A stretch of 64,000 nt of DNA. It comes from Ornithinimicrobium sp. F0845. GTDB taxonomy: Bacteria > Actinomycetota > Actinomycetes > Actinomycetales > Dermatophilaceae. The stretch's first letter is position 1, and each line of letters opens with the position of its first letter. Made by a program: the position numbers and the translations under genes. The stretch spans positions 124,001 to 188,000 of the forward strand of contig NZ_JALKAL010000004.1 of NCBI RefSeq assembly GCF_023015765.1, written 5' to 3'. The notes beneath the pieces are model-generated. The model was not told where the DNA came from and searched no databases. It was given only the letters and a program-made list of their open reading frames with translations. This document shows, piece by piece, positions 1,586-35,546 of the stretch.

Positions 1586-2400
1586 CGGCCCTCCAGCTTC
1601 GGGTCGAGGTAGTCGCGCAGGCCGTCGCCGAACAGGTTGAAGCCGAGCACCGCGAGCGCGATGGCCGCGCCGGGGATGATCGCCAGGTGGGGCGCGCGGT
1701 GCAGGACGTTCTGGGACTCCAGCAGCATCCGGCCCCAGGACGGCTCGCCGGTGGGGGTGCCCAGTCCCAGGTACGACAGGGCCGCCTCGGCCAGGATCGC
1801 GATGGCGAAGGAGACCGACGCCTGCACGATGACCAGCCCGACCACGTTCGGCAGGACGTGCTGCCAGGCGATCGCGAACGGGCCGCGACCGGCGACCCGG
1901 GCGGCCGCGACATACTCGGTGTTGACCACCTGCAGGGCCCCGGACCGGACGATCCGCGCGAAGGCGGGGATGGTGGCGATGCCGATCGCGACCATCGCCA
2001 CGAACGTGCCGCCGCCGTAGAGCGCGGAGAACATGATCGCCAGCAGCAGCGCCGGGAACGCGAGCAGGATGTCGTTGCCACGCATGATGAGCTGGCCGAA
2101 CCAGCCGGGGGACATCGCGGCCAGTATGCCGATCGGCACCCCGATCACCGCGGCCACCGCCACGGCGACGAGGCCGACGAACAGGGTGGTCCGGGCGCCG
2201 AGCAGGATCTGCGTGAGCACGTCGCGGGAGGAGCGGTCCGTCCCCAGCCAGTGCTCGGCGTTGGGGGTCTGCTCCTTGGGGACGGGGAGGTACTTGAACT
2301 CGTACGGCGTCCAGACGTAGGAGATCAGCGCCATCGCGACCACGAGCAGGACGAGGGCGCCGCCGATGAGCAGCGGCGCGTTGAGGCGACGGCCGCTCAC
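1582..2400 (-). CDS. Peptide ABC transporter permease (OppC/DppC-type)
   Basis: Inner-membrane permease, 272 residues from the GTG at 2400. The frame stays open upstream to an ATG at 2481, but that extra stretch is hydrophilic and is the out-of-frame reading of the mini-ORF at 2397-2474. The GTG is preceded by GAGGA at a suitable distance, overlaps the mini-ORF stop as GTGA, and is followed directly by the first membrane segment (PLLIGGALVLLVVAMALISY). The binding-protein-dependent permease core follows, ending with the family-typical region ALSYLGLGTPTGEPSWG. It pairs with the OppB-type permease to form the pore. Confidence 0.92.
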   Translation of the reverse strand: MSGRRLNAPLLIGGALVLLVVAMALISYVWTPYEFKYLPVPKEQTPNAEHWLGTDRSSRDVLTQILLGARTTLFVGLVAVAVAAVIGVPIGILAAMSPGWFGQLIMRGNDILLAFPALLLAIMFSALYGGGTFVAMVAIGIATIPAFARIVRSGALQVVNTEYVAAARVAGRGPFAIAWQHVLPNVVGLVIVQASVSFAIAILAEAALSYLGLGTPTGEPSWGRMLLESQNVLHRAPHLAIIPGAAIALAVLGFNLFGDGLRDYLDPKLEGR

Positions 2401-2474
2401 AGCGAATCCTCGATGAGCTCCGCGGACCGCTCCGGGCCTCGCAAGCTCGTGTCCTCGCCGGTCCTGTCGCTCAT
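2397..2474 (-). CDS. 25-codon overlapping mini-ORF, copy A (between oppB-type and oppC-type genes)
   Basis: A 25-residue reading frame beginning MSDRTGEDTSLRGP and ending RSAELIEDSL. Its ATG overlaps the stop of the upstream permease gene as ATGA, and its stop overlaps the GTG of the downstream permease as GTGA, so ribosomes could pass through all three. A near-identical copy lies at 35469-35546 in an unrelated operon in the same intercistronic position. Over the first 22 codons the two copies differ at only three nucleotides. The 3' end supplies the downstream ribosome binding site. I recognise no family. Whether the peptide or only the DNA/RNA matters is unknown. Confidence 0.6.
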   Translation of the reverse strand: MSDRTGEDTSLRGPERSAELIEDSL

Positions 2475-3421
2475 CGTGCACCCGTCCGCAGCCGCGGGTC
2501 GATCAGCAGGTAGAGCACGTCGACCAGGAAGTTGATGATGAGCACGGCGGCGACCAGGACCATCACCACGGTCTGCACGGTGACCAGTTCGCGCGCGGAG
2601 ACCGAGTCGAGCAGGAAGGTGCCGAGGCCGGGGATGACGAAGACCCGTTCGACGACTACCGCGCCGATGAGCAGCGTCGCCAGCTGCAGACCGAGGACGG
2701 TCACGATCGGCACCGAGGCGTTGCGCAGCCCGTGCCGGGTCAGCGCCTGCATCGGCCGCAGGCCCTTGGCCCGGGCGGTGCGCAGGTAGTCCTCGCGCAG
2801 CACGTCGAGCACCGCGGAGCGGACATAGCGGGACAGCACCGAGGCCTGCACGAGGGCCAGCGACAGCGCCGGCAGCACCAGCTTGCTGAGGAAGTCCACA
2901 GGGTCCTCCGCCGGCGGGGTCCAGCCGCCGGAGGGGAACCACCCGAACCTCTTGGAGAAGTAGGTGATGAGGATGATGCCGGCCAGGAACGCCGGGATGG
3001 CGACGCCGATCTGCGAGATCCCCGAGAGCACGACCCCGTCGGCGTGGCGGTGCCGGACCGCCATCCAGGTGCCCACCGGCAGCGCGATGAGCAGGGCCAG
3101 CACCATCGAGGTCACCACCAGCCAGGCGGTGACCGCCACGCGGTCGACGAGCTGCGGCGCGATCGGGGCCTTGCTGACCCACTCCACGCCCAGGTCGAGC
3201 GTGACCATCCCGCTGGCCCAGTCGGCATACTGCACGAGCAGGGGCCGGTTGAGGCCGAACTGTTCGCGCATCGCCTCCACGGACTCGGCGGAGGAGTTCA
3301 TGCCCAGGGCGACCCGGGCCGGGTCGCCCGGCAGCACCTGCATGAACGCGAAGACCAGCACCGAGGCCACCACGAGGCTGGCCAGCAGCACCAGGAAGCG
3401 TTGCGCCAGACGGAGGAGCAC
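2471..3421 (-). CDS. Peptide ABC transporter permease (OppB/DppB-type)
   Basis: Inner-membrane permease of 316 residues with a GTG start at 3421, 16 bases after the stop of the binding-protein gene. The N-terminal membrane segment (FLVLLASLVVASVLVFAFMQ) is followed by the family motif VLPGDPARVALG, and the central permease signature lies around LRNASVPIVTVLGLQL. The order binding protein, B permease, C permease, two ATPases is that of peptide/nickel-type importers. Its stop overlaps the start of the 25-codon mini-ORF rather than the next permease, which is unusual. Confidence 0.93.
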   Translation of the reverse strand: MLLRLAQRFLVLLASLVVASVLVFAFMQVLPGDPARVALGMNSSAESVEAMREQFGLNRPLLVQYADWASGMVTLDLGVEWVSKAPIAPQLVDRVAVTAWLVVTSMVLALLIALPVGTWMAVRHRHADGVVLSGISQIGVAIPAFLAGIILITYFSKRFGWFPSGGWTPPAEDPVDFLSKLVLPALSLALVQASVLSRYVRSAVLDVLREDYLRTARAKGLRPMQALTRHGLRNASVPIVTVLGLQLATLLIGAVVVERVFVIPGLGTFLLDSVSARELVTVQTVVMVLVAAVLIINFLVDVLYLLIDPRLRTGAR

Positions 3422-3437
3422 CGGGGTCAGGCTCCCG

Positions 3438-4982
3438 TCAGCCGCGCGCGAGGTTGGCCAGGTCGAAGGACTCGGTGATGGCGTTCTGCGGGAGGCCGGT
3501 GATGTCCGGGTCGGCCACGATCAGGTTGGGCAGCAGGAAGAGGAAGTCGGAGGCGGCGTCCTGCGAGATCAACGCGGCTGCCTCCTTCATCTTCTCGACC
3601 TGGACCTCCTCGCTGCCCGTGTCGGCCTCCTCCAGCAGCGCGCGCAGCTCGGGGGTGCCGTAGCGGATGTAGTAGTCGGGGTTGCCGAAGACGTTGCCGA
3701 GGTCGCGGGGCTCCACGTGGGCCACGATCGACATCTCGTAGTCGGCGTTGGTGAAGACGTCCTCGACCCACGCGGCCGGGAACTCCAGGTCGTCGATGGT
3801 GACGTCGAAGCCGACCTCCTCCAGCATGGTCTCCACGACCGGCGCGCACGCGGTGGCGTAGGGCAGCGTCGGGATCCGCAGCCGGACCTGCACGCCCTCG
3901 GCCTCCGCCTCGGCCATCAGCGCCTTGGCGGCCTCGACGTCATAGGGGTAGTCGCCGGTGCGGTCCTCGTACCACGGGTCGGTGGGCGGGACCATCGAGC
4001 CGATCAGGGTGCCGCGGCCGTCCCAGCAGGTGTCCAGCAGGGCCTGGTGGTCTATCGCGTGGCGCGCGGCCTGGCGCACCTTGAGGTCGTTAAACGGCTC
4101 CGTCTCGTTGTTGAAGCTCAGGACCACCTCGCCGTTGGTCGTGCCCTCGATGATCTGGAAGTCGCCGTCCTCGAACTCGCTCAGCGCCTCGGGGGCCTGC
4201 ACCGTGCCGACCACGTCGATGCCATCGGTGAGCATCGCGTTGTTCAGCGCGGTCGCGTCGGTGAAGTAGGACAGCACGACCTGGTCGAAGTAGGGCTCCT
4301 CGCCCCAGTAGTCGCTGTTGCGCTGCAGCGAGATCGAGGTGCCGCGGTTCCACTCGCCGAAGGTGTAGGGGCCGGTGCCGATCGGCCGCGTGGCGAGCTC
4401 GTCGACGCTGTTGGAGTCGAAGATCGCCCCCACGCGGGTGGTCAGGCTGTAGAGGAAGGTGTTGCTCGGCGCGGTCAGCGTGACGACCACCTCGGTGTCG
4501 CTGGAGGCCTCGACCGTGTCGATGATGTCGAACTGGCTCTTCAGGCTCACCGTCCAGTCGTTCGTGACCGCCTCGAAGGATGAGACGACGTCCTCGGCGG
4601 TGAACGTCTCGCCGTTGCTGAAGGTCACGCCCTCCTGGAGGGTGAAGGTGTAGGTCAGGCCGTCGTCGCTCACCGTGTATTCCGAGGCGAGCGCCGGCAC
4701 CATCTCACCGTTCTGGTCGATCTTGACCAGCGTCTCGTAGACGTTGTAGAGCAGGGCCTGGGGGATCGCCGCACCGTCGGTGGTGGTGAAGTCGAGGCTG
4801 GCGGGCTCGGCGACCAGGCCGATGCGCACGGTGTCCTCGCCGGCGGGGGCCGCGGTGCCGTCCGCCGTGCTGTCGCCCCCGTCGGTCGGGTCCGGGTCGT
4901 CGCTGGTGGAGCCCGCATTGCAGGCCGTCAGCAGGAAGGTGAGCGAGAGGGCGGCTGCGAACGCCCTGGTGCGTGACGTCAT
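3438..4982 (-). CDS. Extracytoplasmic solute-binding lipoprotein, family 5 (OppA/DppA-type)
   Basis: Substrate-binding protein of 514 residues that captures peptides outside the membrane. It starts with a lipoprotein signal: basic MTSRTR, a hydrophobic stretch, then the lipobox LTAC with Cys at about residue 21. An acidic Ser/Thr/Pro-rich linker follows. The mature part has family-5 hallmarks such as the region ending RPIGTGPYTFGEW, and FNNETEPFNDLKVRQAARHAID. It is first in the operon. The ligand is unknown; peptides are the usual cargo, but nickel, opines or sugars occur in this family. Confidence 0.93.
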   Translation of the reverse strand: MTSRTRAFAAALSLTFLLTACNAGSTSDDPDPTDGGDSTADGTAAPAGEDTVRIGLVAEPASLDFTTTDGAAIPQALLYNVYETLVKIDQNGEMVPALASEYTVSDDGLTYTFTLQEGVTFSNGETFTAEDVVSSFEAVTNDWTVSLKSQFDIIDTVEASSDTEVVVTLTAPSNTFLYSLTTRVGAIFDSNSVDELATRPIGTGPYTFGEWNRGTSISLQRNSDYWGEEPYFDQVVLSYFTDATALNNAMLTDGIDVVGTVQAPEALSEFEDGDFQIIEGTTNGEVVLSFNNETEPFNDLKVRQAARHAIDHQALLDTCWDGRGTLIGSMVPPTDPWYEDRTGDYPYDVEAAKALMAEAEAEGVQVRLRIPTLPYATACAPVVETMLEEVGFDVTIDDLEFPAAWVEDVFTNADYEMSIVAHVEPRDLGNVFGNPDYYIRYGTPELRALLEEADTGSEEVQVEKMKEAAALISQDAASDFLFLLPNLIVADPDITGLPQNAITESFDLANLARG

Positions 4983-5286
4983 ACGAGGAGGCCTTCCTGG
5001 GATGCCTGCGCCCGGGTCCTCGGGCGCAGCTCAAGCACTGGTCCCGGCCAACTCTGCCGCATGCCGCCCGCGCACGACCATCCGGGTGCGCAACCGATAC
5101 GGAGTCGTTATCCGATGGTCACCCACGATCCGCGAGTATGCCGACGGGTCGGGTCTCCCTGTCCGGCACCGGGATCATGGGGTCGCGACCCGGGTGCTCG
5201 ACCTCCGGGCACAGGAAAGCGTCAGCGGAGCCTGCCCCAGGCTCCGCTGACGCCTTTCCCCTGCCGGGTGCGGGACTACGCGCGGG
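4983..5286. other. Intergenic region of about 300 bp
   Basis: No gene seen. It should carry the promoter of the importer operon (minus) at the 4983 side; I could not pick a convincing -35/-10 pair. The other side holds the strong hairpin at 5216-5257. One GTATGCCG octamer is at 5136-5143. Confidence 0.5.
5216..5257 (-). terminator. Intrinsic-type terminator downstream of ABC-2 exporter operon
   Basis: A perfect 16-bp inverted repeat (GCGTCAGCGGAGCCTG at 5219-5234 and its complement at 5238-5253) with a 3-base loop. On the minus strand it is followed by TTTCC. It sits about 30 bases beyond the stop of the permease gene ending at 5287. The T-run is short, as is common in GC-rich actinobacteria. 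Confidence 0.8.
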
Positions 5287-6108
5287 TCACTTGACCTCGC
5301 GGCGCAGCACGCGCCACACCCCGATGACCAGTGGGACTCCAATCCACAGGGCCACCGATACGGCGAGCTGTCCCCACTGCTCGCCCGTCAACGCTTCCCC
5401 CGTGGTCAGGGGAGCGGTCGTCATCGTCAGGTCGATCCACTCGTAGGGCGTCGCCAGCCAGCTGACCAGGCTCATCAGGGGCAGCAGGGTCGGCAGGGCG
5501 AAGTAGGCGACGATCGCGGCCGGCGTGCTGAGGAAGGCCAGGCCGAAGGCCAGACCCTGCAGCACGTAGAGGGTCATCATCAGCGTCAGCCCGGCGATCA
5601 TCCAGCCGTCCACGCCCCAGGGCGTCTCCGCCCCGCGCAGGTCGCCCAGCAGCCGGCCGACGGCCCCCAGCGCGAGGGTCACGACGACCGCGCCCAGCCC
5701 GAGCAGGACCGTGCTCGCGATCTTGGCCGCCACGACCCGGCCGCGGCGCGGCTCCAGCGCGAAGGTGGTCATCGCGGTCCGCTGGCTCCACTCCTGGGTC
5801 GCGGAGAGGATGCCGAGCACCGGCAGGAAGATCCCGAGCGGGATCCCCGCGGCCGCGAGGTAGTTGCCGTAGCTGTGGTCGCCCTGGTCGACGAAGAGCA
5901 TGATCGTCATCGCGACGACGATGACGAGGCCCAGGATGATGAGGAACCAGCGCCCGGCCAGGGTGTCGACCTGCTTGCGGGTCTCGACCCGGACCAGCCG
6001 GCTGAACGGGACCGCCGTGATCGGGTTGTCCTGGATGGTCGGGAGGTGGAAGCCGGCGCGGGCCGGAGCGGCCTGCGGCGTGGCCTGCAGTTCGGTGGTG
6101 GTGCTCAT
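5287..6108 (-). CDS. ABC-2 type exporter permease
   Basis: Membrane subunit of an exporter, 273 residues. After a soluble N-terminus there are about six hydrophobic segments, including WFLIILGLVIVVAMTIMLFV, VVVTLALGAVGRLLG, MIAGLTLMMTLYVLQGLAFG and WGQLAVSVALWIGVPLVIGV. This is the pattern of ABC-2 permeases of the YhgE/NatB/DrrB class rather than of importers. Its ATG overlaps the ATPase stop by 4 bases. The divergent two-component system at 7148-9480 probably controls the pair, as is common for antibiotic-response exporters (inference). Confidence 0.85.
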   Translation of the reverse strand: MSTTTELQATPQAAPARAGFHLPTIQDNPITAVPFSRLVRVETRKQVDTLAGRWFLIILGLVIVVAMTIMLFVDQGDHSYGNYLAAAGIPLGIFLPVLGILSATQEWSQRTAMTTFALEPRRGRVVAAKIASTVLLGLGAVVVTLALGAVGRLLGDLRGAETPWGVDGWMIAGLTLMMTLYVLQGLAFGLAFLSTPAAIVAYFALPTLLPLMSLVSWLATPYEWIDLTMTTAPLTTGEALTGEQWGQLAVSVALWIGVPLVIGVWRVLRREVK

Positions 6109-7004
6109 GCTGCCGTCTCCTGTCGTGCGTCGTCGGAGGTGAGGGTGAGGAACATCTCCTCCAGGCCCTGGCTGTCGGCGCCACGCAGCTCGGTGAGCAT
6201 CAGGCCCGCGGAGAAGGCGATGGAGCCCACGCGGGGGGTCTCCGCCTCCACGCTGAGACCGCCGCCCGGGAGCGCGCTGACCGCGATGCCCTCGGCCACG
6301 AGTGCGGCCTCCAGCCGCTGGTCGTCGATGCTCCTGACGAGGGACCCGGAGGGGCGCAGCAGCTCCTCCTTTGTGCCGGAGGCCACGATGCGGCCGCGGC
6401 CGATCACCACGATGTCGTCGGCGATCCGCTCGATCTCGTGCAGCAGGTGCGAGGAGAGCAGCACCGTGCCGCCCTCGGCGGCGAACGTACCCAGCAGGTC
6501 CCGCATCCAGCGGATCCCGGCGGGGTCCAGCCCGTTGGCCGGCTCGTCGAGGATCAGGACCTTCGGGTCGCCGAGCAGCGCGCTGGCCAGGCCGAGGCGC
6601 TGCCGCATGCCCAGGGAGTAGTTGCGGACCCGCCGCTTGGACTCCTTCTGCGTGAGCCCGACGACCTCCAGCATCTGGTCGACGCGGCGGTTGTCGATGC
6701 CCAGGGTCATGGCGCCCAGGGCCAGCACCTCACGGCCGGTGCGGCCGGCGTGCTGGGCCGAGGCGTCGAGGAGGACCCCCACGTGCCGCCCCGGGTTGGT
6801 GAGCTGTGCGTAGGGCGTGCCGAGCACCGTCGCGGTGCCCGAGGTCGCCGGGGTGAGCCCGGTCATCACGCGCATGGTCGTGGACTTGCCCGCCCCGTTG
6901 GGACCGAGGAACCCGGTCACCCGTCCAGCCTCGGCAGTGAACGACACGTCGTCCACGGCGGTGAAGTCCCCGTACTTCGTCACGAGGTTCTGTACCTGAA
7001 TCAT
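6105..7004 (-). CDS. ABC exporter ATP-binding protein (DrrA/CcmA/NatA-type)
   Basis: ATPase of 299 residues driving the ABC-2 permease downstream. Motifs are Walker A GPNGAGKST near residue 35, signature YSLGMRQRLGLA, Walker B VLILDEPANGLDPAG and the switch region LSSHLLHEIERIADD. The C-terminal domain of about 80 residues is typical of drug-export ATPases. The ATG at 7004 is 143 bp from the divergent histidine kinase start. CAGACT lies 7 bases upstream of the ATG, which would fit a leaderless start but is weaker than the box on the other strand. Confidence 0.9.
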   Translation of the reverse strand: MIQVQNLVTKYGDFTAVDDVSFTAEAGRVTGFLGPNGAGKSTTMRVMTGLTPATSGTATVLGTPYAQLTNPGRHVGVLLDASAQHAGRTGREVLALGAMTLGIDNRRVDQMLEVVGLTQKESKRRVRNYSLGMRQRLGLASALLGDPKVLILDEPANGLDPAGIRWMRDLLGTFAAEGGTVLLSSHLLHEIERIADDIVVIGRGRIVASGTKEELLRPSGSLVRSIDDQRLEAALVAEGIAVSALPGGGLSVEAETPRVGSIAFSAGLMLTELRGADSQGLEEMFLTLTSDDARQETAA

Positions 7005-7135
7005 GCCTACCAGTCTGCGGGACCACCGCCCGGCCCCACATCAGTCCGCAGTCTGGACCTGCGTCATACCTTGGTATGCCGTCGGGCCGGCTGGTCACAG
7101 ACTTTCGCCGCTCCCTGTGGTCCTGCAGGAGGTCC

Positions 7136-7147
7136 TAGGGTCGGGGT
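7136..7147 (+). promoter_or_regulatory. Leaderless-type -10 element of the histidine kinase gene
   Basis: TAGGGT at 7136-7141, then six bases, then the GTG start at 7148. The same TAnnnT-N6-start spacing is seen before several other genes here, suggesting transcription begins at the start codon. Confidence 0.55.
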
Positions 7148-8341
7148 GTGAGACCCGGCCAGCCACCGACCACCCGTTGGGGGGAGACGTGGCGTCTGCT
7201 GGTCGCCCTGGCTGTCGGTGCGGTCGTGTGGCTCTCGTCCTGGGCCACGATCGACCTGGAGAACCGGGTCGGCCCCGAGTGGTGGCTGATGAGCGGGGAC
7301 CTGCTGCTCGGCGTGATCTCGCTCGGGCTGATGCTGCTGCGGCGCCGCTGGCCGGTGCCGATCGCGCTGGCCATCATCGTCCTCTCCTCCGTGTCGACCC
7401 TCGCAGCGGGCGCCTGCCTGATCGTCATCATCTCGGTGGCCACCCGGCGGCGCTGGCGGGAGCTGGCGATCATCACGCCGCCGTACCTGGCGACCTCGTT
7501 CGTGTGGGACCGCATGTTCACCTCACCGACCTCGGCGACGCTGACGACGACGCTGACCAACGTGACGATCCAGGTGCTGGTCCTGATCGCAGCGTTCGCC
7601 ATCGGCTACTCGATCGGGGTGCGCCGCGACAACATCGCGGCGCTGCGGGAGCGCGCCGAGGTCGCCGAGCGGGAGCAGGGTCACCGGGTCGAACAGGCGC
7701 GGGCGACCGAGCGGGCCCGGATCGCGCGCGAGATGCACGACGTGCTGGCGCACCGGATCAGCCTGATCGCGATGAACGCCGGGGCCATGACCTATCGCGA
7801 GGACCTCCCTCCGGAGCAGCTGCGGGAGATCGCGGGCACGGTCCGGGACAACGCCGACCAGGCGGTGCAGGAGCTGCGGGCGGTGCTCGGTGTGCTCCGT
7901 GGCAACGACGAGCCCGACCAGCCCCGGGGGCCCCAGCCGGACCTCGCCCAGCTCGGCGCCCTGCTTGACGACGCGCGCGCGGGCGGCACGCCGGTCGTAA
8001 CCACGCTGCGGGTCGATCCAGCCACGGTGCCGGAGCAGGTCAGCCGGCACGCCTACCGGATCATCCAGGAGGGGCTGACCAACGCCCGCAAGCACGCTCC
8101 GGGTCAGCCGGTCACCGTCTCGCTGTCCGGCTCCGCCGGCGTCGGCCTCGACCTCACCGTGGTCAACCAACCCAAGTCGTATGGCGTGACGCCCCAGGGC
8201 GACGCAGTCCGGGACAGCGGGTCCGGCATGGGCCTGCTCGGTCTGGCCGAGCGGGCCGTCCTCAGCGGCGGACAGCTGAGCTACGGCACCGACCGGTCGG
8301 GCCGCTTCGTCGTGCGCGCCTGGCTCCCGTGGACCTCCTGA
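7148..8341 (+). CDS. Sensor histidine kinase, NarL/DesK subclass (HisKA_3)
   Basis: Membrane sensor kinase of 397 residues. The first 160 or so residues hold about five hydrophobic segments (LLVALAVGAVVWLSSW, LLLGVISLGLMLL, PIALAIIVLSSVSTLAAG and IQVLVLIAAFAIGYSIG are clear), then a short helical linker and the phosphoacceptor box ERARIAREMHDVLAHRISL. The ATPase domain ends with the G-box SGMGLLGLAERA. There is almost no extracytoplasmic loop, as in intramembrane-sensing kinases. It is divergent from the exporter operon and 428 bp upstream of its likely response regulator; this gap is unusually large for such a pair. Confidence 0.92.
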   Translation: MRPGQPPTTRWGETWRLLVALAVGAVVWLSSWATIDLENRVGPEWWLMSGDLLLGVISLGLMLLRRRWPVPIALAIIVLSSVSTLAAGACLIVIISVATRRRWRELAIITPPYLATSFVWDRMFTSPTSATLTTTLTNVTIQVLVLIAAFAIGYSIGVRRDNIAALRERAEVAEREQGHRVEQARATERARIAREMHDVLAHRISLIAMNAGAMTYREDLPPEQLREIAGTVRDNADQAVQELRAVLGVLRGNDEPDQPRGPQPDLAQLGALLDDARAGGTPVVTTLRVDPATVPEQVSRHAYRIIQEGLTNARKHAPGQPVTVSLSGSAGVGLDLTVVNQPKSYGVTPQGDAVRDSGSGMGLLGLAERAVLSGGQLSYGTDRSGRFVVRAWLPWTS

Positions 8342-8478
8342 CACCATTCATCCACCACCACACACCTCGCCACGCCCCCCACCACGACCGGGCGCGTCGC
8401 GCTGTGCTCTCCCAGGCCACCGGCCGCGTCGCGCTGTGCTCGCCCCCTGGCGCCGGCCGCGTCGCGTTGCGCTTCCAG

Positions 8479-8737: not shown

Positions 8738-8769
8738 TTCCTCATCGTGGGCTGGTTACCGTGGACCCC

Positions 8770-9480: not shown

Positions 9481-9486
9481 CCCCCT

Positions 9487-11519: not shown

Positions 11520-11562
11520 CCCAATTCTTGGGGAAGTTCGGTACGCCCCGTGCGCCGCTCCC

Positions 11563-14740: not shown

Positions 14741-14751
14741 ACGGTGCGAGT

Positions 14752-27440: not shown

Positions 27441-29080
27441 GGCGTGCCCTTCTGCAGGTAGACCCGCTTGAGCTTGGTGTTCTCCACCGCGAACGGGCCG
27501 GTGCCGAAGTCGTGCACGCGGACCTCGATGTCGCCGGTGCGGGCGGACTCCTCCAGCGACTGGGCGAAGTCGCGGCTGACCCTGGCGAGGTAGCCCACGA
27601 CCCCTTCCTGGGCGTCGCGGGCCAGCTCGGAGCGCTCGTCCGCGGTGAGCGACTCGTCCTCGCGCAGCTCGAGGTGGATCACGGGCTGACTGTCCCGGCC
27701 GCCGTCGAGCTCCTCCAGGGTGAGGGTGAAGGAGGCGAGGCGGGCCGCGCGGGCGGAGTCGGCGTACAGCCCGTTCTCGACGTCCTGGGGATAGATGTTG
27801 GCGCCCATGAACGAGATCGTGGCGTCCTTGCGGCCGTAGAGAAGGAGCAGCGGGAGCTTCATGCCCTGCGCCTGCCAGGCCCGGCGCGCGGCGGACTGCC
27901 ACTCGGGGCGGGTGCGCAGGATCGCGGCCAGGTCGTGCCAGTCCAGGATCACCCCCTCGTCGCCGATGTTGTAGCGCAGCTTAGGGCTGAGCACCGACGT
28001 CGACGTGAGGGTGCAGAGGATCTCGCCGTCGTCGGTGACCTCGAGGTAGGTCTCGAGCGGGTTGTACTGGAAGATCATCGGCGTGCGCGTCTCGTCCGGG
28101 CCGAGCACGGCCTCGCGCAGGTCGTGGTCGCGCAGCAGCTGGCGACGCAGCCACACGGTCAGCTCGGTCTCGCCGCCGATGCCGATGGTCAGGTCGGAGG
28201 CGCCGTAGCCGGAGCGCACCGTCAGGAAACGCTCCTCGCAGTAGTCGCGCAGCGCCTCGGTCATCCCCTCGCCACCGACCAGTCCGTGCATGCGGTGCCG
28301 GTCCCAGTCGAAACCCTCGTCGTCGAGCCGGTCCCGCAGGTCCTTCAGGAAGGGCGGGTAGGCGGTGATCAGGTAGGTGAAGCCGGTCCCGAAGTGGGTG
28401 ATGGTGTCCACGATCTTGTCCAGGTCGGGGCCGGTGTTCTTGACCATGGCGATCTTGGCCATCGCGATGCCGGTGTTGGTGCCGGTCGCCCACGCCCCCA
28501 TCGAGTAGGCGTTGATGACGAACAGCCGCGGCTCGTCCCTCATCATCAGTGAGGTGAAGCCGGCGACGTTCCGGTGGATGTCCTGGAGCTCCTCCCTGCC
28601 GCGGACCCAGTTGAACGGGCGACCCGAGGAGCCGGAGGACTCATCCACGAGGGTGCCGCGCAGGTCCATCTCGCCGTGCCAGCAGCGGGCCTCCTCGCCG
28701 AAGCGGGTCACGTAGGTGTCCTTGCTGGTCGGCGGGTAGTTCTCCAGGTCCCACCACCGGAAGGTCCAGTCCCGCTCCCGGAGGAACTGCTGGTAGGCCG
28801 GCACGTGCAGCGACCCGAGCTGACAGGTCATCCACGCGTGCCAGCGCGCGAAGTCGCCCATCCACGGCCGGTAGTGGGTCGCGGTCAGGCGCCACATCGC
28901 CGGGTGCACCTTGTAGAGGCTGTAGCTCTGGGTGAGGGCCCCGGTGCCTGCCCGGAGCGCAGCGCGACGGGTGACCTTCAGGGGTCTGCTCGTCCACACC
29001 CGCTCGCCCAGGCCGTAGATCGTCTGCCCCGCCCGTTGCCTCGCCCCTCGCATCGCCATGCCGTGAGTATGCCGTGCCAT
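27437..29080 (-). CDS. PaaK/CoF-like adenylate-forming ligase, first gene of a five-gene operon
   Basis: 547 residues from the ATG at 29080, preceded by GGAGGAGG; the frame is open to 29200 through repeat DNA without similarity. Adenylation motifs visible are SSGSSGRPFNWV (P-loop), SGYGASDLTIGIGGE, YNPLETYLEV, LRYNIGDEGV and LLYGRKDATISFMGANIYP. These resemble phenylacetate-CoA ligase and coenzyme F390 synthetase-type enzymes. The acyl substrate is unknown. All four following genes overlap by 4 bases, so the five products are probably made in fixed proportion. Confidence 0.85.
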   Translation of the reverse strand: MARHTHGMAMRGARQRAGQTIYGLGERVWTSRPLKVTRRAALRAGTGALTQSYSLYKVHPAMWRLTATHYRPWMGDFARWHAWMTCQLGSLHVPAYQQFLRERDWTFRWWDLENYPPTSKDTYVTRFGEEARCWHGEMDLRGTLVDESSGSSGRPFNWVRGREELQDIHRNVAGFTSLMMRDEPRLFVINAYSMGAWATGTNTGIAMAKIAMVKNTGPDLDKIVDTITHFGTGFTYLITAYPPFLKDLRDRLDDEGFDWDRHRMHGLVGGEGMTEALRDYCEERFLTVRSGYGASDLTIGIGGETELTVWLRRQLLRDHDLREAVLGPDETRTPMIFQYNPLETYLEVTDDGEILCTLTSTSVLSPKLRYNIGDEGVILDWHDLAAILRTRPEWQSAARRAWQAQGMKLPLLLLYGRKDATISFMGANIYPQDVENGLYADSARAARLASFTLTLEELDGGRDSQPVIHLELREDESLTADERSELARDAQEGVVGYLARVSRDFAQSLEESARTGDIEVRVHDFGTGPFAVENTKLKRVYLQKGTP

Positions 29081-29099
29081 GCCTCCTCCGACGCGGACC

Positions 29100-29165
29100 C
29101 GTCGGTCCTGGGTTCCGTCAGTTCTGGATTCCGTCTGTCCTGGTTCCGTCGGTCTGCTGAGGGTC
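29100..29165 (+). repeat. 15-16 bp tandem repeats upstream of the ligase gene
   Basis: TTCCGTC recurs at 29113, 29129 and 29144 with similar flanks (GTCCTGG or GTTCTGG), in the 126-bp gap between the SnoaL-like and ligase genes. Confidence 0.6.
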
Positions 29166-29206
29166 TTGCGGCTGGGTTGCGGCTGTGGCCCGGTTGCCAC
29201 CGACCG

Positions 29207-29740
29207 CTACGGGTCGTCGTAGCGCGCCGGCCGCAGGCCGGACCCGTCCGTTCGTGGACCGGACCCGTCGGCGACCAGGGTCTGGGCACCCGGCACGATG
29301 TCGGTGTTCTGCGCGGCGACGGCCCGCAAGGTGCCGTCCTTCTGGCGCCGGGTGACGAAGACGAAGATGCCCCGGCGGTCCCCGGCGTAGCCCGGCCCAC
29401 CGTCGTCGGCGTAGCCCGGCGCACCGTCGTCGGCCTCGCCCGCCCCACCGTCGCCGCCGGACGGCATACTCTGACCCTCGATCCGCCACCGGGCGTGGAC
29501 CACGGCCGTGTCCCCCAGGTCCCGCACCCGCAGCCGCTCGATGCTCATCGTGCTGCCGGGGAAGATGTGGGCGAAGCCGTAGGCGTGGTTATGCCGGATT
29601 TGCTCGCGCCTGGTCCACCAGAAGCCGACGACGTTGACGAAGTCGGCGTCGTCGGTGAAGAGCGCGGCGATGGCATCCGCGTCGCCACGGTTCCAGGCGT
29701 CGGCAAAGCGGTTGGCGACGTCCTCGGGGTTGCTCAGCAT
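29207..29740 (-). CDS. SnoaL-like (NTF2-fold) protein
   Basis: 177 residues from the ATG at 29740. PEDVANRFADAWNRGDADAIAALFTDDADFVNVVG is a typical SnoaL-like/ketosteroid-isomerase-fold opening (written here as one pattern broken at DADA), followed by HARWRIEGQ. An acidic loop of about 30 residues with repeats of GAPGYADDGGPGYAGD type interrupts the fold between two strands; it is encoded by tandem repeats at about 29390-29460. Families of this fold serve as isomerases, cyclases or hydrolases; none can be chosen. It may be co-transcribed with the ligase operon 126 bp downstream. Confidence 0.75.
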   Translation of the reverse strand: MLSNPEDVANRFADAWNRGDADAIAALFTDDADFVNVVGFWWTRREQIRHNHAYGFAHIFPGSTMSIERLRVRDLGDTAVVHARWRIEGQSMPSGGDGGAGEADDGAPGYADDGGPGYAGDRRGIFVFVTRRQKDGTLRAVAAQNTDIVPGAQTLVADGSGPRTDGSGLRPARYDDP

Positions 29741-30041
29741 CCGCAGGCCAGCCCTCGCCGCAGGTTCACCGGGGTGACGGTCGGGGTGGCCATGCCAACG
29801 ATGATGGCACCCCGATGGCGCGGCCACGCGTGCAGTTCCTTCCTGCCAAGCCAGTCCTGGTACGCCGTCCTGCCACACCGTCCCGCCACGGCTCTCTGCA
29901 CATCGCGGCCTGAGCTGAGGCGCGCCAGCCATCCACAGCCTCCGGCCGGCCACCACACCTATCCACAGGTTGGTGTCGCCTCGTTGGTGGCCGAGCGCGC
30001 TGTTCCTAATGTCGGGGGCAACCGAGTGGGAGGAGGAACTG

Positions 30042-31595
30042 ATGGCGAACCAGAGTTGGGCACAGCCCAGCGGACGACCGCCGGAGTGGGCAGTCGAAGA
30101 CGGCGCCAGGACGACCTCCTCCCACTCGGATCCACCCGAGTCCGCTGCGCCGCAGAGGCACGCCATCGGGGAGGCGTTGACGGCGATCGAGGAGTCGCTG
30201 GACGGGGTGGGCACGGCCCAGTGGCAGGACGTCCCGGAGCCCCAGGTCCGCGACCTCACCCGACGGATCGCCCGGTTGACGGCACGCCTGTCCGCCCATC
30301 AGATGGCGGCGGCGCAGGTGATGGAGAAGGCCGGCACCGCGCGACGTGCCGGCGCGACGTCCACCGGTCAGATGATGGCGAACGACTTCGGCGGAGACCG
30401 TCGCGGCTCAGAGGACCTCGTGAGGACTGCTGGCGCACTCGAGGAGTCTGGTGCCTCCGCGACCCAGGACGCCCTGGCAGCCGGTGACATCAGCCAGGAG
30501 CAGGCCAAGATCATCGGCCGGACGGTCGCCGCACTCCCCAAGTACCTCACCGATCAGGAGCGTCGCGAGGTCGAGCAGAAGCTGCTGGGCGCGGCGAGCC
30601 GGTTGTCCCTGACCGACCTTCGGCGCCGTGGCAAGCGCGCCCTCGAGGACGTCCGTCCCGACCCGGAGGCTGACGAGGGGGAGGACAAGGAGACCTCACG
30701 CCAGGAGAAGTCCGCGTGGGAGAAGACCTGCTTCTCGATGTGGGACCGCAAGGACGGCACCCACGGCTTCAACGGGATCGTCCCCGACCTCCAGGCTCAC
30801 CAACTCCGAGCGCTGCTCGATGCGGTCGTGTCCCCACGCCGCAACCACCTGGCCGACGAGCAAGACAGTGGTGCCGACAACGAGCAAGACAGTGGTGCCA
30901 ACGACGAGCAAGACTGGGGTGCCGACAACGAGCAGGACCGGAGTGCCGGCAGCCAGACTGGGGATGCGCCGCCTCCCACCACACCGGAGGAGATGACGCC
31001 CTACCCGAACCAGTTGGGCCGGGCCCTCTGCGGTCTCATCGAGCACTTCCCGACGGACGGCTTCGCTCAGGCCGGTGGATCACCGGTGTCGCTCGCCATC
31101 ACGTTTGCCTACGAGCACCTCGCGAACCAGTCCGCGAAAGTGGCCGGCACCCTGACCGACGGCCTCCGAGTGTCCGGCGGGCAGATTCGTCGTCTGGCCT
31201 GCACGCAGCAACTCATCCCGCAGGTCTTCAACGGACGCTCCGTGCCGCTCGACCAGGGGACCGCCAAACGGCTCTTCACCAAGGAGCAGCGACGGATCCT
31301 GGCCCAACGGGACCTCGGATGCGCATTTCCAGGCTGCGACCGGCCCCCGCAGTGGTGCGACGGGCATCACCTGAGGAGCTGGTCGAAGGGCGGACGTACC
31401 GACCTGGGCAACGGCGTCCTCCTCTGCTTCTTCCACCACCACGCCGTCCACGACCAGGGGTGGAGCGTGCGCCTGCACCCAGGCGACGGCATCCCCGAGT
31501 TCGCGCACCCCGAGCACACCGGTGGCCGGTGGCAACGCAACCATCGGTTCCGAGCCTCCACCGACCTCCTCCCACAGCTCGGCGCCGTCCCATAG
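30042..31595 (+). CDS. DUF222/HNH endonuclease-domain protein (13E12 type)
   Basis: 517 residues from the ATG at 30042, preceded by GGGAGGAGGAACTG. The long helical DUF222 part includes ARLSAHQMAAAQVMEKAG and ALAAGDISQEQAKIIGRTVA. The C-terminal HNH nuclease is complete: CAFPGCDRPPQWCDGHHL, WSKGGRTDLGNGVLLCFFHH. This family matches the multi-copy 13E12-repeat proteins of mycobacteria, whose biological role is unresolved. Between them, residues of DEQDSGADNEQ type are repeated four times with a 24-bp period (30858-30953). It stands alone. Confidence 0.88.
   Translation: MANQSWAQPSGRPPEWAVEDGARTTSSHSDPPESAAPQRHAIGEALTAIEESLDGVGTAQWQDVPEPQVRDLTRRIARLTARLSAHQMAAAQVMEKAGTARRAGATSTGQMMANDFGGDRRGSEDLVRTAGALEESGASATQDALAAGDISQEQAKIIGRTVAALPKYLTDQERREVEQKLLGAASRLSLTDLRRRGKRALEDVRPDPEADEGEDKETSRQEKSAWEKTCFSMWDRKDGTHGFNGIVPDLQAHQLRALLDAVVSPRRNHLADEQDSGADNEQDSGANDEQDWGADNEQDRSAGSQTGDAPPPTTPEEMTPYPNQLGRALCGLIEHFPTDGFAQAGGSPVSLAITFAYEHLANQSAKVAGTLTDGLRVSGGQIRRLACTQQLIPQVFNGRSVPLDQGTAKRLFTKEQRRILAQRDLGCAFPGCDRPPQWCDGHHLRSWSKGGRTDLGNGVLLCFFHHHAVHDQGWSVRLHPGDGIPEFAHPEHTGGRWQRNHRFRASTDLLPQLGAVP
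30858..30953 (+). repeat. Four in-frame 24-bp tandem repeats (8 codons)
   Basis: Units begin with GAGCA(A/G)GAC at 30858, 30882, 30906 and 30930, encoding an acidic Asp/Glu/Gln/Gly linker in the DUF222/HNH protein. The period is exact. Confidence 0.9.
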
Positions 31596-31658
31596 GCCTT
31601 CGTCCGCCCGACAGGTGGGCGGTGGCTGGCGCCAGCGAATAGGTGCTGCCGAGCGCGA

Positions 31659-31805
31659 GTGACTCGGCCGGTGCATGATGCGCGCGGCTCGGCCGCTGCG
31701 TGGTGCGCTGGCTCAGCCAGTGCACGGTGCGAGTGGCTCGGCCGCTGCATGGTGCGCGTGGCTCAGCCAGTGGATGCTGCGAGTGGCTCAACCAGTCGAG
31801 GTGCG
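31659..31805 (+). repeat. Six tandem ~25-bp repeats between convergent genes
   Basis: CTC(G/A)(G/A)CC recurs at 31663, 31688, 31712, 31737, 31762 and 31787 with related flanks (GTGGCTCGGCCGCTGCATGG and variants). There is no unique spacer between units, so it is not a CRISPR array. It fills the gap between the HNH gene and the stop of the VOC gene. Confidence 0.8.
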
Positions 31806-31812
31806 AGTGCCG

Positions 31813-32331
31813 TCAGCCGGCGAAGAGGCAGAACGGGTGGCCGTGCGGATCGATCATCACGCGTACGTGCTCCTGCGGCTGGTGCTGGTGCTCGGTGGCA
31901 CCGCACTCGAGCGCCCACGCCACGGAGGCCTCGATGTCGTCCACCCAGAGGTCGAGGTGGGTCATGGCCTGCTGTGGCGCCGCACCCACGGTGACCGCGG
32001 ACTGCGCGGTGGGGATGGAGGTGACCGGATCTGATGAGAGCGGCGCTGCGCCGATGCCGTCGCCCACCGACGGCCAGCCGAGCCGGCTGGGGGGTCGGCT
32101 GGGCCAGACCGGCGGCACGTAGTGCTCGTCCCACTCGAAGTTGAGGGTCATCATCAGGTGCCCCTCGGCCGGGCCGATCTGCGCCCACCCGGCTGTGGCG
32201 GGCTCGCCCTCGCGTGGCCCCTCGGAGACCCTGACCTCCACCCCCAGCAGGCGCGCATAGAACGCGGCGAGCGCCCGCGGGTCCGGCGTGCTGATCGAGA
32301 CCGACGTGGCCTGGATCCTCGGCTGTGTCAT
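31813..32331 (-). CDS. VOC-family (glyoxalase/bleomycin-resistance-fold) protein
   Basis: 172 residues from the ATG at 32331 (an in-frame start at 32358 is also possible). IQATSVSISTPDPRALAAFYA, LLGVEVRV, MTHLDLWVDDIEASVAWALECG and VRVMIDPHGHPFCLF are the two beta-alpha-beta modules of a vicinal-oxygen-chelate domain, ending with the usual DPxGHPFCL. A polar insertion of about 25 residues sits between the modules. Metal-binding His and Glu positions are plausible but the reaction is unknown. Confidence 0.85.
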   Translation of the reverse strand: MTQPRIQATSVSISTPDPRALAAFYARLLGVEVRVSEGPREGEPATAGWAQIGPAEGHLMMTLNFEWDEHYVPPVWPSRPPSRLGWPSVGDGIGAAPLSSDPVTSIPTAQSAVTVGAAPQQAMTHLDLWVDDIEASVAWALECGATEHQHQPQEHVRVMIDPHGHPFCLFAG

Positions 32332-32339
32332 GGCGATGC

Positions 32340-32450
32340 CGTCTCCTCCGTCAGTCATGGCCCGGCCAGTGCTCCCCGTCGGTCATGGCGATGTCGTCGC
32401 ATGCGTGGGTCATGGCTACGTCGTCGCGTGCGTCGGTCATGGCGCGGCCG
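32340..32450 (+). repeat. Tandem repeats between the VOC gene and the small membrane protein gene
   Basis: GTCGGTCATGGCG-type blocks recur about five times between 32357 and 32447 (GTCAGTCATGGC, GTCGGTCATGGCGATGTCG, GTGGGTCATGGCTACGTCG, GTCGGTCATGGCGCGG). The periods are roughly 20-30 bases. No gene seen. Confidence 0.6.
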
Positions 32451-32921
32451 TCAATTCCGTCCGAACCACCAGAGCGCACCGACGAACGAGGCCACCACGA
32501 CGACGGCGGTGCCGGCCACCCAGAGCCCGGTGTCCCAGTCCGCGAAGAGGGTCAGCGCCACGCCGACGACGGCGACCAGGAGGGCGACCTGCCCGGCCGT
32601 GCGGGTCGCGCGGAACTGGACCAGCCGTTCCGCGTCATCCGCCTCGTGTCCGGTGACCAGGCGGGCGGCCGGCTCAAGCCGTCGCACGACTGCGTGCAGC
32701 ACGGCGTACCCGAGGAACAGCCCGCCGCCGATGGCAGCGGCCCGAGGGTTGCCGCGGGAGAGAGCGAACAGCACCACCGCCAACGCAGCGAGCACGCACA
32801 GTCCGGTGAAGAGCCGGTCGCGCAGCCTCAGGCGGCGCCGCGCACGGGGCGAGCCACCACCGTCGCCCTCGCTCCGACTGCGCAGCGCGGGAAGCGACCT
32901 CCCACCGTCGGACCGGGCCAC
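32451..32921 (-). CDS. Small integral membrane protein of unknown function
   Basis: 156 residues, GTG start at 32921, three bases after the E2 stop. The N-terminus is basic and polar. Four hydrophobic segments follow: LFTGLCVLAALAVVLFALS, AAAIGGGLFLGYAVLHAVV, AGQVALLVAVVGVALTLF and GLWVAGTAVVVVASFVGALWW. I recognise no firm family. It is likely co-transcribed with the dehydrogenase operon, but no functional link is visible. Confidence 0.7.
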   Translation of the reverse strand: MARSDGGRSLPALRSRSEGDGGGSPRARRRLRLRDRLFTGLCVLAALAVVLFALSRGNPRAAAIGGGLFLGYAVLHAVVRRLEPAARLVTGHEADDAERLVQFRATRTAGQVALLVAVVGVALTLFADWDTGLWVAGTAVVVVASFVGALWWFGRN

Positions 32922-32924
32922 GGA

Positions 32925-34463
32925 TCAGCCCCAGACCAGGGCGCGGCTCGGGTCCTCCATCAGCGCGGCCAGGTCGGCCAGGAACCTCGAGCCGAGCTCG
33001 CCGTCGATGAGCCGGTGGTCGAAGGAGACCGCGAGCTGGGTGATCCAGCGCGGCACGATCTCCTCGGTCCCGTCGGCGGAGGTGACCACCCACGGCTGTC
33101 GGCGCACGGCGCCGAAGGCCACGATCGCCGACTCGCCCGGGTTGATGATCGGGGTGCCGGTGTCGACGCCGAAGACGCCGACGTTGGTGATCGTGATCGA
33201 CCCGCCGGACATCTCGGCAGGCTGGGTGCGGCCCGACCGGGCGGTCTCGATCAGGTTGGCCATGGCGTCGGCCAGCTGCCGCAGGTCCATCAGGTCCGCG
33301 TCCTTGATGTTCGGGACGATCAGGCCACGCGGGGTCGCGGCGGCGATGCCGAGGTTCACGTAGTTCTTCTGGACGATCTCCTGCGCGTCCTCGTCCCACA
33401 CCGCGACCATGCCGGGGTTGCGCTTGACCGCCAGGCACAGCGCCTTGGCCAGGATGAGCAGCGGCGAGATCTTCACGCCACGGAACTCGCGGTCGCTCTT
33501 GAGGCGCTCGACCAGCTCCATCGTGGCGGTGACGTCGACGGTGATGAACTCTGTGACGTGCGGCGCGGTGAACGCCGAGCCGGTCATCGCCTGTGCCGTC
33601 ATCTTGCGGACGCCCTTGACCGGGGTGCGCGTCTCCCGCTCGCCGGAGCGGTCGAACACCGGCGGGGAGTATGCCGAGGTGCCGGCTGCGTCGTCTGCGG
33701 TCCGGGGCGTCTGCGGGGCCTCCGCCGCTGGTGCGGCGGCCGCCGCCCCGGTGTGCGGTGCGGCTGCGCCGACCGCGGCAGCCGGTGCCGTCCCGCCAGC
33801 CAGGTGTGCGTCGACGTCGGCGCGGGTGATCACGCCGTCCTCACGGGTCGGGGTGACGGCCTTGAGGTCGACGCCCTTGTCCTTGGCGTACTTGCGGACC
33901 GGGGGCTTGGCCAGCGCCGGACCCTTCGGCTGCTCGGGCTCGGCCGGAGCCTCCTCGCTGGCTGCCTCGCCGGCTGCTGCGTCCCCACTGGCCGCGGACT
34001 TCCGGGCACGGCGTTGCGTGGCGCCGGCGGACGGCCCGTAGCCGACCAGGTTGGCCTCGCGCCCGGGCGCCTCCGGAGTGCTCTCACCCGGTGCTGCCTG
34101 GGTGCCGGGAGCGGCCGTGCCGGCCGTCTCGCCACCGGCAGCGGCCTCCTCGCCGTTGGCGCCGGCCTCTTCGCCGTTGGCGCCGGCCTGCGCGCCGTCG
34201 GCGCCGGTGGTCGGCTTCCCTCCGCCGTCGCCGGTGTCGATCACGATGATCGGTGAGCCCACCTCGACCGTGGTGCCCTCCTCGACCAGGATCTCGGACA
34301 CGGTGCCGGCCCACGGGATCGGCAGCTCGACCAGCGACTTGGCCGTCTCGATCTCCACGACGATGTCGTTGACCTTGACCTCGTCGCCGACCTTGACCTT
34401 CCAGGTGACGATCTCGGCCTCGACCAGGCCCTCACCGGGGTCGGGCAGGTTGAACTGGGGCAC
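32925..34463 (-). CDS. bkdC: Dihydrolipoamide acyltransferase (E2) of a 2-oxoacid dehydrogenase complex
   Basis: 512 residues, GTG start at 34463 after AAGGAG. One lipoyl domain carries the lipoylated Lys in VEIETAKSLVELP (about residue 43). A long Ala/Gly/Glu-rich linker, partly repetitive (GEEAGANGEEA), precedes the E3-binding domain (RKYAKDKGVDLKAVTPT, about 200-235). The catalytic domain ends with the active-site region SFDHRLIDGELG. It accepts acyl groups from E1alpha/E1beta encoded upstream. No E3 gene is present in the window. The E1alpha/E1beta/E2 arrangement is that of actinobacterial branched-chain complexes. Confidence 0.9.
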   Translation of the reverse strand: MPQFNLPDPGEGLVEAEIVTWKVKVGDEVKVNDIVVEIETAKSLVELPIPWAGTVSEILVEEGTTVEVGSPIIVIDTGDGGGKPTTGADGAQAGANGEEAGANGEEAAAGGETAGTAAPGTQAAPGESTPEAPGREANLVGYGPSAGATQRRARKSAASGDAAAGEAASEEAPAEPEQPKGPALAKPPVRKYAKDKGVDLKAVTPTREDGVITRADVDAHLAGGTAPAAAVGAAAPHTGAAAAAPAAEAPQTPRTADDAAGTSAYSPPVFDRSGERETRTPVKGVRKMTAQAMTGSAFTAPHVTEFITVDVTATMELVERLKSDREFRGVKISPLLILAKALCLAVKRNPGMVAVWDEDAQEIVQKNYVNLGIAAATPRGLIVPNIKDADLMDLRQLADAMANLIETARSGRTQPAEMSGGSITITNVGVFGVDTGTPIINPGESAIVAFGAVRRQPWVVTSADGTEEIVPRWITQLAVSFDHRLIDGELGSRFLADLAALMEDPSRALVWG

Positions 34464-34479
34464 GGCATACTCCTTGCGG

Positions 34480-35469
34480 TCAGTAGGCGAGCGAGCGGTC
34501 CACCGCGTCCAGGATGCGGTCCAGGTCGGGCAGGAAGACCTCTTCGTGGCGGCTGGGCGGGTAGGGGATGTTGTAGCCGCCGACGCGGATGACCGGGGCC
34601 TCGAGGTGATAGAACGCCTCGTGCTGGACGAGCGCCGCGAGCTCGGCGCCCATGCCGAGGAAGGTCTGCGCCTCGTGCGCGACCACCACGCGGCCGGTCT
34701 TCCTCGCCGACTCCAGGATGGTCGGGACGTCCAGCGGGGACAGCGAGCGCAGGTCGACGACCTCGATCGAGCGTCCCTCGGTGTCGGCGGCCTGCGCAGC
34801 GATCATGGCGGTCTTGACCATGGGGCCGTAGGCCAGCAGCGTCACGTCGGTGCCGGGGGTGCGCACCACCGCGTCGTGGAGACCGTGGGGCGCGTCCTCA
34901 CCCAGCTCGATCTCGCCGCGCTCGTGGTAGCGACGCTTGGGCTCATAGAAGACGACCGGGTCGTCGCTGGCGATCGCCTGCTGGATCATCCAGTAGGCGT
35001 CCTCGGCGCTGGAGCAGGTGACCACGCGCAGGCCAGCGGTGTGCGCGAAGTAGGCCTCGTTGGACTCGCTGTGGTGCTCCACGGCGCCGATCCCGCCGCC
35101 GTAGGGGATGCGGATGACCATCGGCAGGCGCAGGTGGCCCAGCGACCGGTAGTGCATCTTGGCGACCTGGCTGATGATCTGGTCGAATGCCGGGTACACG
35201 AAGCCGTCGAACTGGATCTCGACGACCGGACGGTAGCCGCGCAGGGCCAGGCCCACCGCGGTGCCCATGATCCCCGACTCCGCGAGCGGCGTGTCCAGGA
35301 CCCGGTCCTCCCCGAAGTCCTTCTGGAGGCCCTCGGTGATCCGGAAGACACCGCCGAGCTTGCCGATGTCCTCACCCAGCAGGACGACCTTCGGGTCGGT
35401 CTCCATGGCGGCCCGCATGCCGGCGTTGAGCGCCTTGGCGATCGTCATCTTCTGCAGTGCGGAGCTCAT
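34480..35469 (-). CDS. bkdB: 2-oxoacid dehydrogenase E1 component, beta subunit
   Basis: 329 residues from the ATG at 35469. MTIAKALNAGMRAAME, VVLLGEDIGKLGGVFRITEGL, FGEDRVLDTPLAESGIMG and EIQFDGFVYPAFDQIISQ are E1beta hallmarks. The ATG is preceded by GAGGAGG, supplied by the end of the 25-codon mini-ORF, and overlaps that ORF's stop by one base (TGATG). The alternative longer start at 35559 is a reading of the mini-ORF in another frame. It forms the heterotetramer with E1alpha. Confidence 0.92.
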   Translation of the reverse strand: MSSALQKMTIAKALNAGMRAAMETDPKVVLLGEDIGKLGGVFRITEGLQKDFGEDRVLDTPLAESGIMGTAVGLALRGYRPVVEIQFDGFVYPAFDQIISQVAKMHYRSLGHLRLPMVIRIPYGGGIGAVEHHSESNEAYFAHTAGLRVVTCSSAEDAYWMIQQAIASDDPVVFYEPKRRYHERGEIELGEDAPHGLHDAVVRTPGTDVTLLAYGPMVKTAMIAAQAADTEGRSIEVVDLRSLSPLDVPTILESARKTGRVVVAHEAQTFLGMGAELAALVQHEAFYHLEAPVIRVGGYNIPYPPSRHEEVFLPDLDRILDAVDRSLAY

Positions 35470-35546
35470 CAGTTTTCCTCCTCGATCAGCTCCGCGGACC
35501 GCTGCGGGCCTCGCAAGCTCGTGTCCTCGCGGGTCCTGTCGCTCAT
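35469..35546 (-). CDS. 25-codon overlapping mini-ORF, copy B (between E1alpha and E1beta)
   Basis: A 25-residue frame starting MSDRTREDTSLRGP and ending RSAELIEEEN. The ATG overlaps the E1alpha stop by one base (TGATG), and its own stop overlaps the E1beta ATG in the same way. It differs from copy A (2397-2474) by two amino acids in the first 22, and both keep rare codons such as AGG and TTG at the same positions. The GAGGAGGAAAAC at the end is the E1beta ribosome binding site. No known family. Confidence 0.6.
   Translation of the reverse strand: MSDRTREDTSLRGPQRSAELIEEEN

Follow-up and report, generated by a model that had tools for sequence, protein, structure and literature searches.

The 64,000-nucleotide stretch of Ornithinimicrobium sp. 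F0845 analysed here, hereafter the window, carries two copies of a short repeated element, each lying at the junction between two subunit genes. A sequence-only reading had noted that the same reading frame occurs twice, at positions 2397-2474 and 35469-35546, each time as 25 codons plus a stop; position and frame of both mini-ORFs (short open reading frames) agree with our analysis, which adds the strand that this reading left unstated, namely minus. According to our analysis, the conserved unit is a predicted hairpin of two covarying stems capped by a near-invariant terminal loop, and the element is probably a non-autonomous, structured interspersed repeat which inserts at translation junctions and behaves like the mycobacterial interspersed repetitive units (MIRUs).

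The two copies in the window and their conserved hairpin

Copy 1 lies on the minus strand between the genes encoding an oppB-type ABC permease (2471-3421) and an oppC-type ABC permease (1582-2400, with its GTG start at 2398-2400). The structured element spans 66 nt (2411-2476, contig 126411-126476) and matches the covariance model R1 with 94.9 bits. Read along the minus strand, it begins with the 5' arm of stem 1, CGATGAGC (2469-2476), which corresponds to the putative host target and contains both the TGA stop of the oppB-type gene (2471-2473) and the start of the mini-ORF. Then come the 5' strand of stem 2 (2457-2464), consisting of GGACC, a single bulged base and GC, the terminal loop GAGGACACGAGCTTGCGAGGCCCGGA (2431-2456), which is the near-invariant core, the 3' strand of stem 2 (2424-2430) and the 3' arm of stem 1, GCTCATCG (2411-2418), the reverse complement of the target. 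The mini-ORF of 25 codons (2397-2474) overlaps the oppB-type stop in an ATGA and, with its own stop, the GTG of the oppC-type gene in a GTGA. Copy 2, also of 66 nt and on the minus strand (35483-35548, contig 159483-159548; R1, 88.6 bits), separates the genes encoding pyruvate dehydrogenase E1 alpha (35546-36751) and E1 beta (34480-35469). Its 5' arm of stem 1, TGATGAGC (35541-35548), again corresponds to the target and holds the E1 alpha stop and the mini-ORF start, its 3' arm, GCTGATCG (35483-35490), has a single mismatch to the 5' arm, and its mini-ORF, likewise of 25 codons (35469-35546), is joined to the gene on each side by a TGATG overlap. The identities of the flanking genes were taken from NCBIfam, where E1 alpha exceeds its cut-off (TIGR03181) and the other three fall below theirs (oppB-type, best match NF045470; oppC-type, below the family cut-offs; E1 beta, NF006667 at 275.8 bits against a cut-off of 321).

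These overlaps, and the three differences in 66 bases between the two window copies (aligned rows L001 and L004), are as the sequence-only reading had described them. The pair that it reported is real, but the copy number exceeds two, and some copies stand in tandem. In what follows, G000 denotes the window's own genome, the other G numbers denote sampled genomes and L numbers denote individual loci or records.

The element is laid out as stem 1 (8 bp, variable), GACA, stem 2, the near-invariant loop GAGGACACGAG...GCGAGGCCCGGA, the second strand of stem 2, GCGGA and the second strand of stem 1. From the 20 copies listed, alignment A1 took 19, leaving out the second, decayed copy in L005, and alignment A3 and model R1 took 18, leaving out both L005 copies. 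In A3, aligned by MAFFT with no use of structure (18 sequences, 13 distinct), both sides change in 13 of the 15 pairs, and 93.2% of cells are paired versus 72.4% after shuffling and 27-45% when the strands are slid. In the family-wide alignment A5 (53 sequences, 44 distinct), both sides change in all 15 pairs and pairing amounts to 91.1% versus 57.6% shuffled and 30-40% slid, figures which are biased to structure since A5 was aligned with a model. Five of the 44 sources (L040, L044, L047, L050, and L053) were dropped from A5 and from model R2 as doubtful; L040 and L047 later gave good scores. The weak model match in L044 (1440-1565) is a long near-perfect palindrome beside a second long palindrome and is probably unrelated.

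Distribution and anchoring at stop and start codons

In the window's own genome (4.2 Mb, 59 contigs), BLASTN identified 10 copies at 8 loci (E 1.2e-34 to 1.2e-5), and the same 10 places were recovered by the covariance model. Outside the window there are tandem pairs at two loci, one following an FtsX-type gene and one preceding nuoH, and further copies at the pyrB/pyrC junction, at the junction of an AMP-binding gene and a branched-chain permease gene, at groES/groEL and at the junction of a zinc-dehydrogenase and a class I-II aminotransferase gene, which we call tdh/kbl by our own naming. Tandem copies follow each other with a period of about 70-90 bp. A search of related genomes, which the sequence-only reading had proposed as a check, was made with model R2 and hit 50 of the 148 family genomes (E<=1e-4), spread over 21 of 48 genera, with up to 22 matches per genome. 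Within the family the copies are patchy, since 8 of the 14 genomes listed for genus g1, the window's own included, have none at E<=1e-4. With R2, a scan of 296 genomes of the class matched six, every one in the window's family, and a scan of 347 genomes of the order matched 17, of which 13 belong to that family. Among the four order matches outside it, L204 and L205 are probably due to chance, and L206 and L207 resemble true relatives in their similar core and nearby stop codon. In f48, a different family of this order, the elements of similar core are located at a stop codon (L206:1560-1720, L207:1525-1600), in L206 as a tandem with a target-like repeat, a hint of a class broader than the window's family. 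Near copies are also present in records of metagenome-assembled genomes titled "Actinomycetales bacterium" and "Acidobacteria bacterium"; we suspect the latter title to be wrong. Rfam 15 gave no match in the window at gathering score, and a search of three of the loci at E<=10 gave no match that overlaps the element.

The sites of insertion were compared over the loci among the family-scan matches listed and 60 further regions, omitting six sites near contig starts and, in the locus scan, the duplicates L003, L008, L018-L027, L060, L062, L068, L071, L072, L073, L079, and L087. The resulting 190 matches in 128 loci (129 searched) were grouped into 133 arrays, which include a few doubtful matches (L044, L053, and one in L067); 131 arrays had sufficient upstream sequence. 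Of these 131, 110 have a same-strand gene upstream; the stop codon of that gene, TGA in 105 of the 110, falls within -6 to +18 relative to the start of the element in 102 arrays and within 0 to +7 in 89. In 12 of the remaining 21 arrays, the start codon of an antisense gene falls within the 5' arm, always at position 6. What the sites have in common is a translation signal that contains TGA, be it in sense or in antisense orientation. The 102 anchored arrays fall into 70 upstream-gene clusters, and some genes recur. Orthologous stop codons are hit across genera in the genes for ketol-acid reductoisomerase (KARI/ilvC; L031, L035, L045, L051, L077, and L144), in a 4Fe-4S ferredoxin-type gene (L032, L034, L078, L084, L086, and L089) and in groES (L009, L012, and L030), a single member of each recurrent set having been checked with Pfam. 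Different core subtypes were observed at the same genes in L123/L147 and in L043/L099.

Empty and filled junctions and site-matched arms

The junction after an FHA-domain gene was read at 19 loci in 20 genomes of the genus, own genome included, and 16 of these loci have no insert. Five of the 16 show a bare ATGA overlap, four of them as called by script (L181, L182, L185, and L187) and L186 as read by eye, the longest-frame rule having misread it, while the other eleven have TGATG or TGAATG. An intact copy occupies the junction in G457 (L183), where the 10-base target CGATGAGCGA flanks the insert on both sides, and likewise in record L013. G000 (L180) and G458 (L184) carry two different shorter inserts, each with an 11-codon mini-ORF overlapping both neighbouring genes, which we read as internal deletions; a single junction is thus known in empty, filled and shortened states. 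In L013 (657-700), about 29 bases following the element are duplicated, giving a second coupled mini-ORF of 10 codons ahead of the true start. At the pyruvate dehydrogenase (pdh) junction, the model matches in only one of the 20 genomes, G000; 18 of the 19 junctions read are empty, six with an overlap (L151-L156) and the rest with short spacers. The number of tandem copies at this locus varies, from one in G000 (L001) to two in the near relative L014. The 5' arm region and the stretch following the element have a word of at least 8 bases in common in 70 of 129 arrays versus 5.3 after permutation, a count to which tandem arrays contribute. At pyrB/pyrC (L006 and L017), the mini-ORF is in frame with pyrC, and the insertion may have given the dihydroorotase an N-terminal extension with an alternative start inside.

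The unusual part of the element, as far as can be judged from the sequences, is the 3' arm, which is complementary to each site's own sequence. Over 128 loci, the two arms of the same locus show a Watson-Crick fraction of 0.827 versus 0.369 when arms are permuted across loci (reached in 0 of 2000 permutations). For the 12 loci of G050 alone, whose cores are similar, the values are 0.906 versus 0.375 (0 of 2000), and for the 10 loci of G034 they are 0.725 versus 0.473 (0 of 2000); the observed value was reached 3 times in 2000 in G000 (8 loci) and 4 times in G032 (6 loci). The matching may stem from selection on RNA, from DNA template switching or from templating at insertion, all of which are possible.

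Of these, the notion that the element at insertion writes the reverse complement of its target into its own 3' end, leaving the target, the hairpin, the target reverse-complemented, a spacer and the target again, is one that we consider possible but unlikely, and we advance it as speculation. If it were true, every copy would gain a custom stem across the stop or start codon of the host gene, and the insertion mechanism would be one for which we know of no precedent. An RNA switch would then be built automatically at the junction, since the 3' arm has two possible pairing partners, one in each copy of the target.

A proposed translational relay and competing explanations

Our preferred reading of a MIRU-like interspersed repeat may be put as follows. 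The element would insert at TGA-containing translation signals, that is, at stop codons, at ATGA or TGATG overlaps and at antisense start codons, the product being the target, the hairpin, the reverse complement of the target, a short spacer and the target. Where the target is a start/stop overlap, this would duplicate the overlap around a stop-free stretch, so that the upstream cistron would be coupled to the mini-ORF and the mini-ORF would in turn be coupled to the downstream cistron or continue into it in frame as a fusion. Such a mini-ORF would be a harmless translational relay and its peptide a by-product, and the downstream start would perhaps be opened mainly by ribosomes arriving via the relay, in the manner of a switch.

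The relay had been suggested by the sequence-only reading, and its geometry is real and recurrent, the relay being unbroken in 32 of 37 operon junctions with a start overlap versus 2 of 15 junctions without one; the idea of a peptide cassette does not hold, as the element is also found at plain stops with no mini-ORF and at antisense starts. Single-copy mini-ORFs mostly have about 24-31 codons. In the own genome, six of the eight loci have a coupled internal ORF, of which four overlap at both ends and the others are the tandem pair at nuoH and the pyrC copy with its in-frame read-on, while groES has none and tdh/kbl is a near miss. The spacer often contains an AGGAG-like (Shine-Dalgarno-like) stretch. 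As judged by eye, the 3' arm and the downstream target copy fold into a short hairpin holding the next start codon at 6 of 10 junctions, this hairpin being poor or absent in L005, L007, L014, and L016; predicted energies range from -4.4 to -14.5 kcal/mol for the short form and from -23.7 to -33.5 kcal/mol for the long form.

That the junctions harbour a conserved micropeptide gene (MSDRTxEDTSLRGP...), retained between subunit genes for its peptide, we deem very improbable. The coding copies of the own genome and of its near relative do share the frame and a near-identical peptide. However, the nucleotide core is also kept with no such reading frame downstream of groES and of the tdh-type gene as well as in L011 and L015, it is read in a different frame in L010 and in other genera, and base variation falls in paired, compensating positions. 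The comparison of synonymous and nonsynonymous change, another proposed check, gave 7 nonsynonymous and 4 synonymous codon variants among 11 coding copies (L005, which has a frameshift, was omitted), with 74% nonsynonymous expected by chance from random single changes; no selection on the peptide is evident, the changes being few enough that weak selection is possible. Since the same core occurs without an ORF and the codon variants give no sign of selection on the peptide, the codons noted by the sequence-only reading seem to be kept for their nucleotides and not for the peptide, so that the earlier claim of conservation stands for the DNA but not for the peptide. The mobilization of palindromes of the repetitive extragenic palindrome (REP) type by a REP-associated tyrosine transposase is close to refuted. 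It would agree with the many short structured repeats near stop codons, but Y1_Tnp was found in 0 of 20 family genomes by a search whose control was positive in 5 of 14, and the repeats are arranged as direct tandems and have target repeats.

Two further explanations deserve more attention, each of them possible but, in our estimation, unlikely. The element might be a host-maintained cis-acting RNA at gene ends, serving the protection of mRNA 3' ends, processing or control of the downstream cistron, with the arm pairing under selection and mobility incidental. The compensatory changes speak for this: at the ATP synthase delta gene of G050 and G082, which belong to one genus, synonymous changes in Gly-Ala codons are matched in the 3' arm (the G082 copy is degenerate, with 21.5 bits), the arms at ketol-acid reductoisomerase compensate across genera, and stem 2 at the FHA junction reads GGACC/GGTCC in L013 versus GGATC/GATCC in L183. 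The recurrence of genes among the anchored arrays points the same way. On the other side, the copies are patchy in genus g1, shortened forms occur, and antisense copies lie at start codons and therefore argue against a sense 3'-end RNA. Alternatively, the arm complementarity could be produced by DNA, through quasi-palindrome template switching or through foldback priming at insertion, either of which would turn the 3' arm into a reverse-complemented copy of the host target. The arms in G050, which differ from gene to gene around similar cores and yet are complementary at each locus, and the reach of arms into the host codons preceding the stop are as this explanation would have it; selection together with age gives the same pattern, however, and a non-standard target did not occur in any before-and-after pair, the insertions with empty sites in g1 using the usual TGAGC-type target.

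Several points weigh against the interspersed repeat that we favour. No transposase, donor molecule or observed jump was found, Y1_Tnp being absent from all 20 family genomes searched, and plasmids, phages and viral contigs gave no match to the own-genome form or to one exact core pattern. Gain rather than loss is the presumed direction, as deduced from most congeners being empty. Several copies have persisted across genera at orthologous sites, as would be expected of a retained function more than of a neutral passenger. The unbroken relay is in only moderate excess, 26.5 junctions being expected after a length-keeping shuffle and 21.9 after random deletions of 1-2 bases, and openness of the mini-ORF is a weak test, open frames being common in G+C-rich sequence. 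A rule based on G+C at the codon positions served to call gene frames in place of a gene finder, and 9 of the 21 arrays with no same-strand gene have no antisense start in the arm either. The arm test keeps related and orthologous loci and cuts arms where the model match ends, a choice that favours pairing with the true partner, and in the five-locus genomes G004, G402, G082, G073, and G419 it is weak, with 22 to 102 of 2000 permutations reaching the observed value.

Relation to described repeats

The sequence-only reading knew of no described family. For the element itself this stands, as no earlier account of it was found among open PMC papers; for its geometry it does not, since the excerpted text of PMC12548453 describes MIRUs with the same arrangement of coupled ORFs. 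In that text, MIRUs, for which Supply et al. 1997 is cited, are apparently mobile repeats that insert at start codons and whose internal ORF is coupled with a spacing of -4 nt. The excerpt of PMC2734929 gives units of 40-100 bp at 41 locations in H37Rv, and an rnc-fpg intergenic region of 279-358 bp in the M. tuberculosis complex, 54 bp in M. leprae and 1-20 bp in the other species listed; that of PMC4213456 reports MIRU units at senX3-regX3 in M. leprae and the M. tuberculosis complex only. Short junctions in relatives, as reported in the excerpts of PMC12548453 and PMC2734929, are a further likeness to the present element. This element, too, is a repeat in the range of about 40-100 bp that is dispersed over several loci (10 places, 8 loci), it sits at translation junctions which are empty in relatives (FHA-gene and pdh junctions), its internal ORF is coupled by overlaps to the flanking genes (6 of 8 own loci, 32 of 37 family-wide), and its tandem copy number varies at the pdh locus. 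It differs in occurring in another, presumably non-mycobacterial, actinobacterial family (50 of 148 genomes). As compared with MIRUs by description only, it seems to contrast with them in being a two-stem hairpin with covarying, site-specific arms and in lying also at plain stops without a mini-ORF and antisense at starts. The present element appears to work in the same way as MIRUs, a likeness judged from layout and behaviour.

These findings suggest that mycobacteria are not alone in having insertions at coupled translation junctions, which can now be studied at about a hundred sites in a further family of actinobacteria. The site-matched arms offer a testable case for either a very strong RNA selection at stop codons or a new route of DNA insertion. 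REP and BIME (bacterial interspersed mosaic element) repeats of enterobacteria are palindromic and lie near stop codons, as does the element studied here, which differs from them in the absence of a Y1_Tnp (RAYT-type) gene (0 of 20 genomes), in having its target on both sides and in entering start/stop overlaps, where it brings a coupled ORF. The palindromic elements of Rickettsia are repeat insertions inside genes that keep reading frames open; the element of the window shares the open frames with them and differs in its position at gene boundaries.

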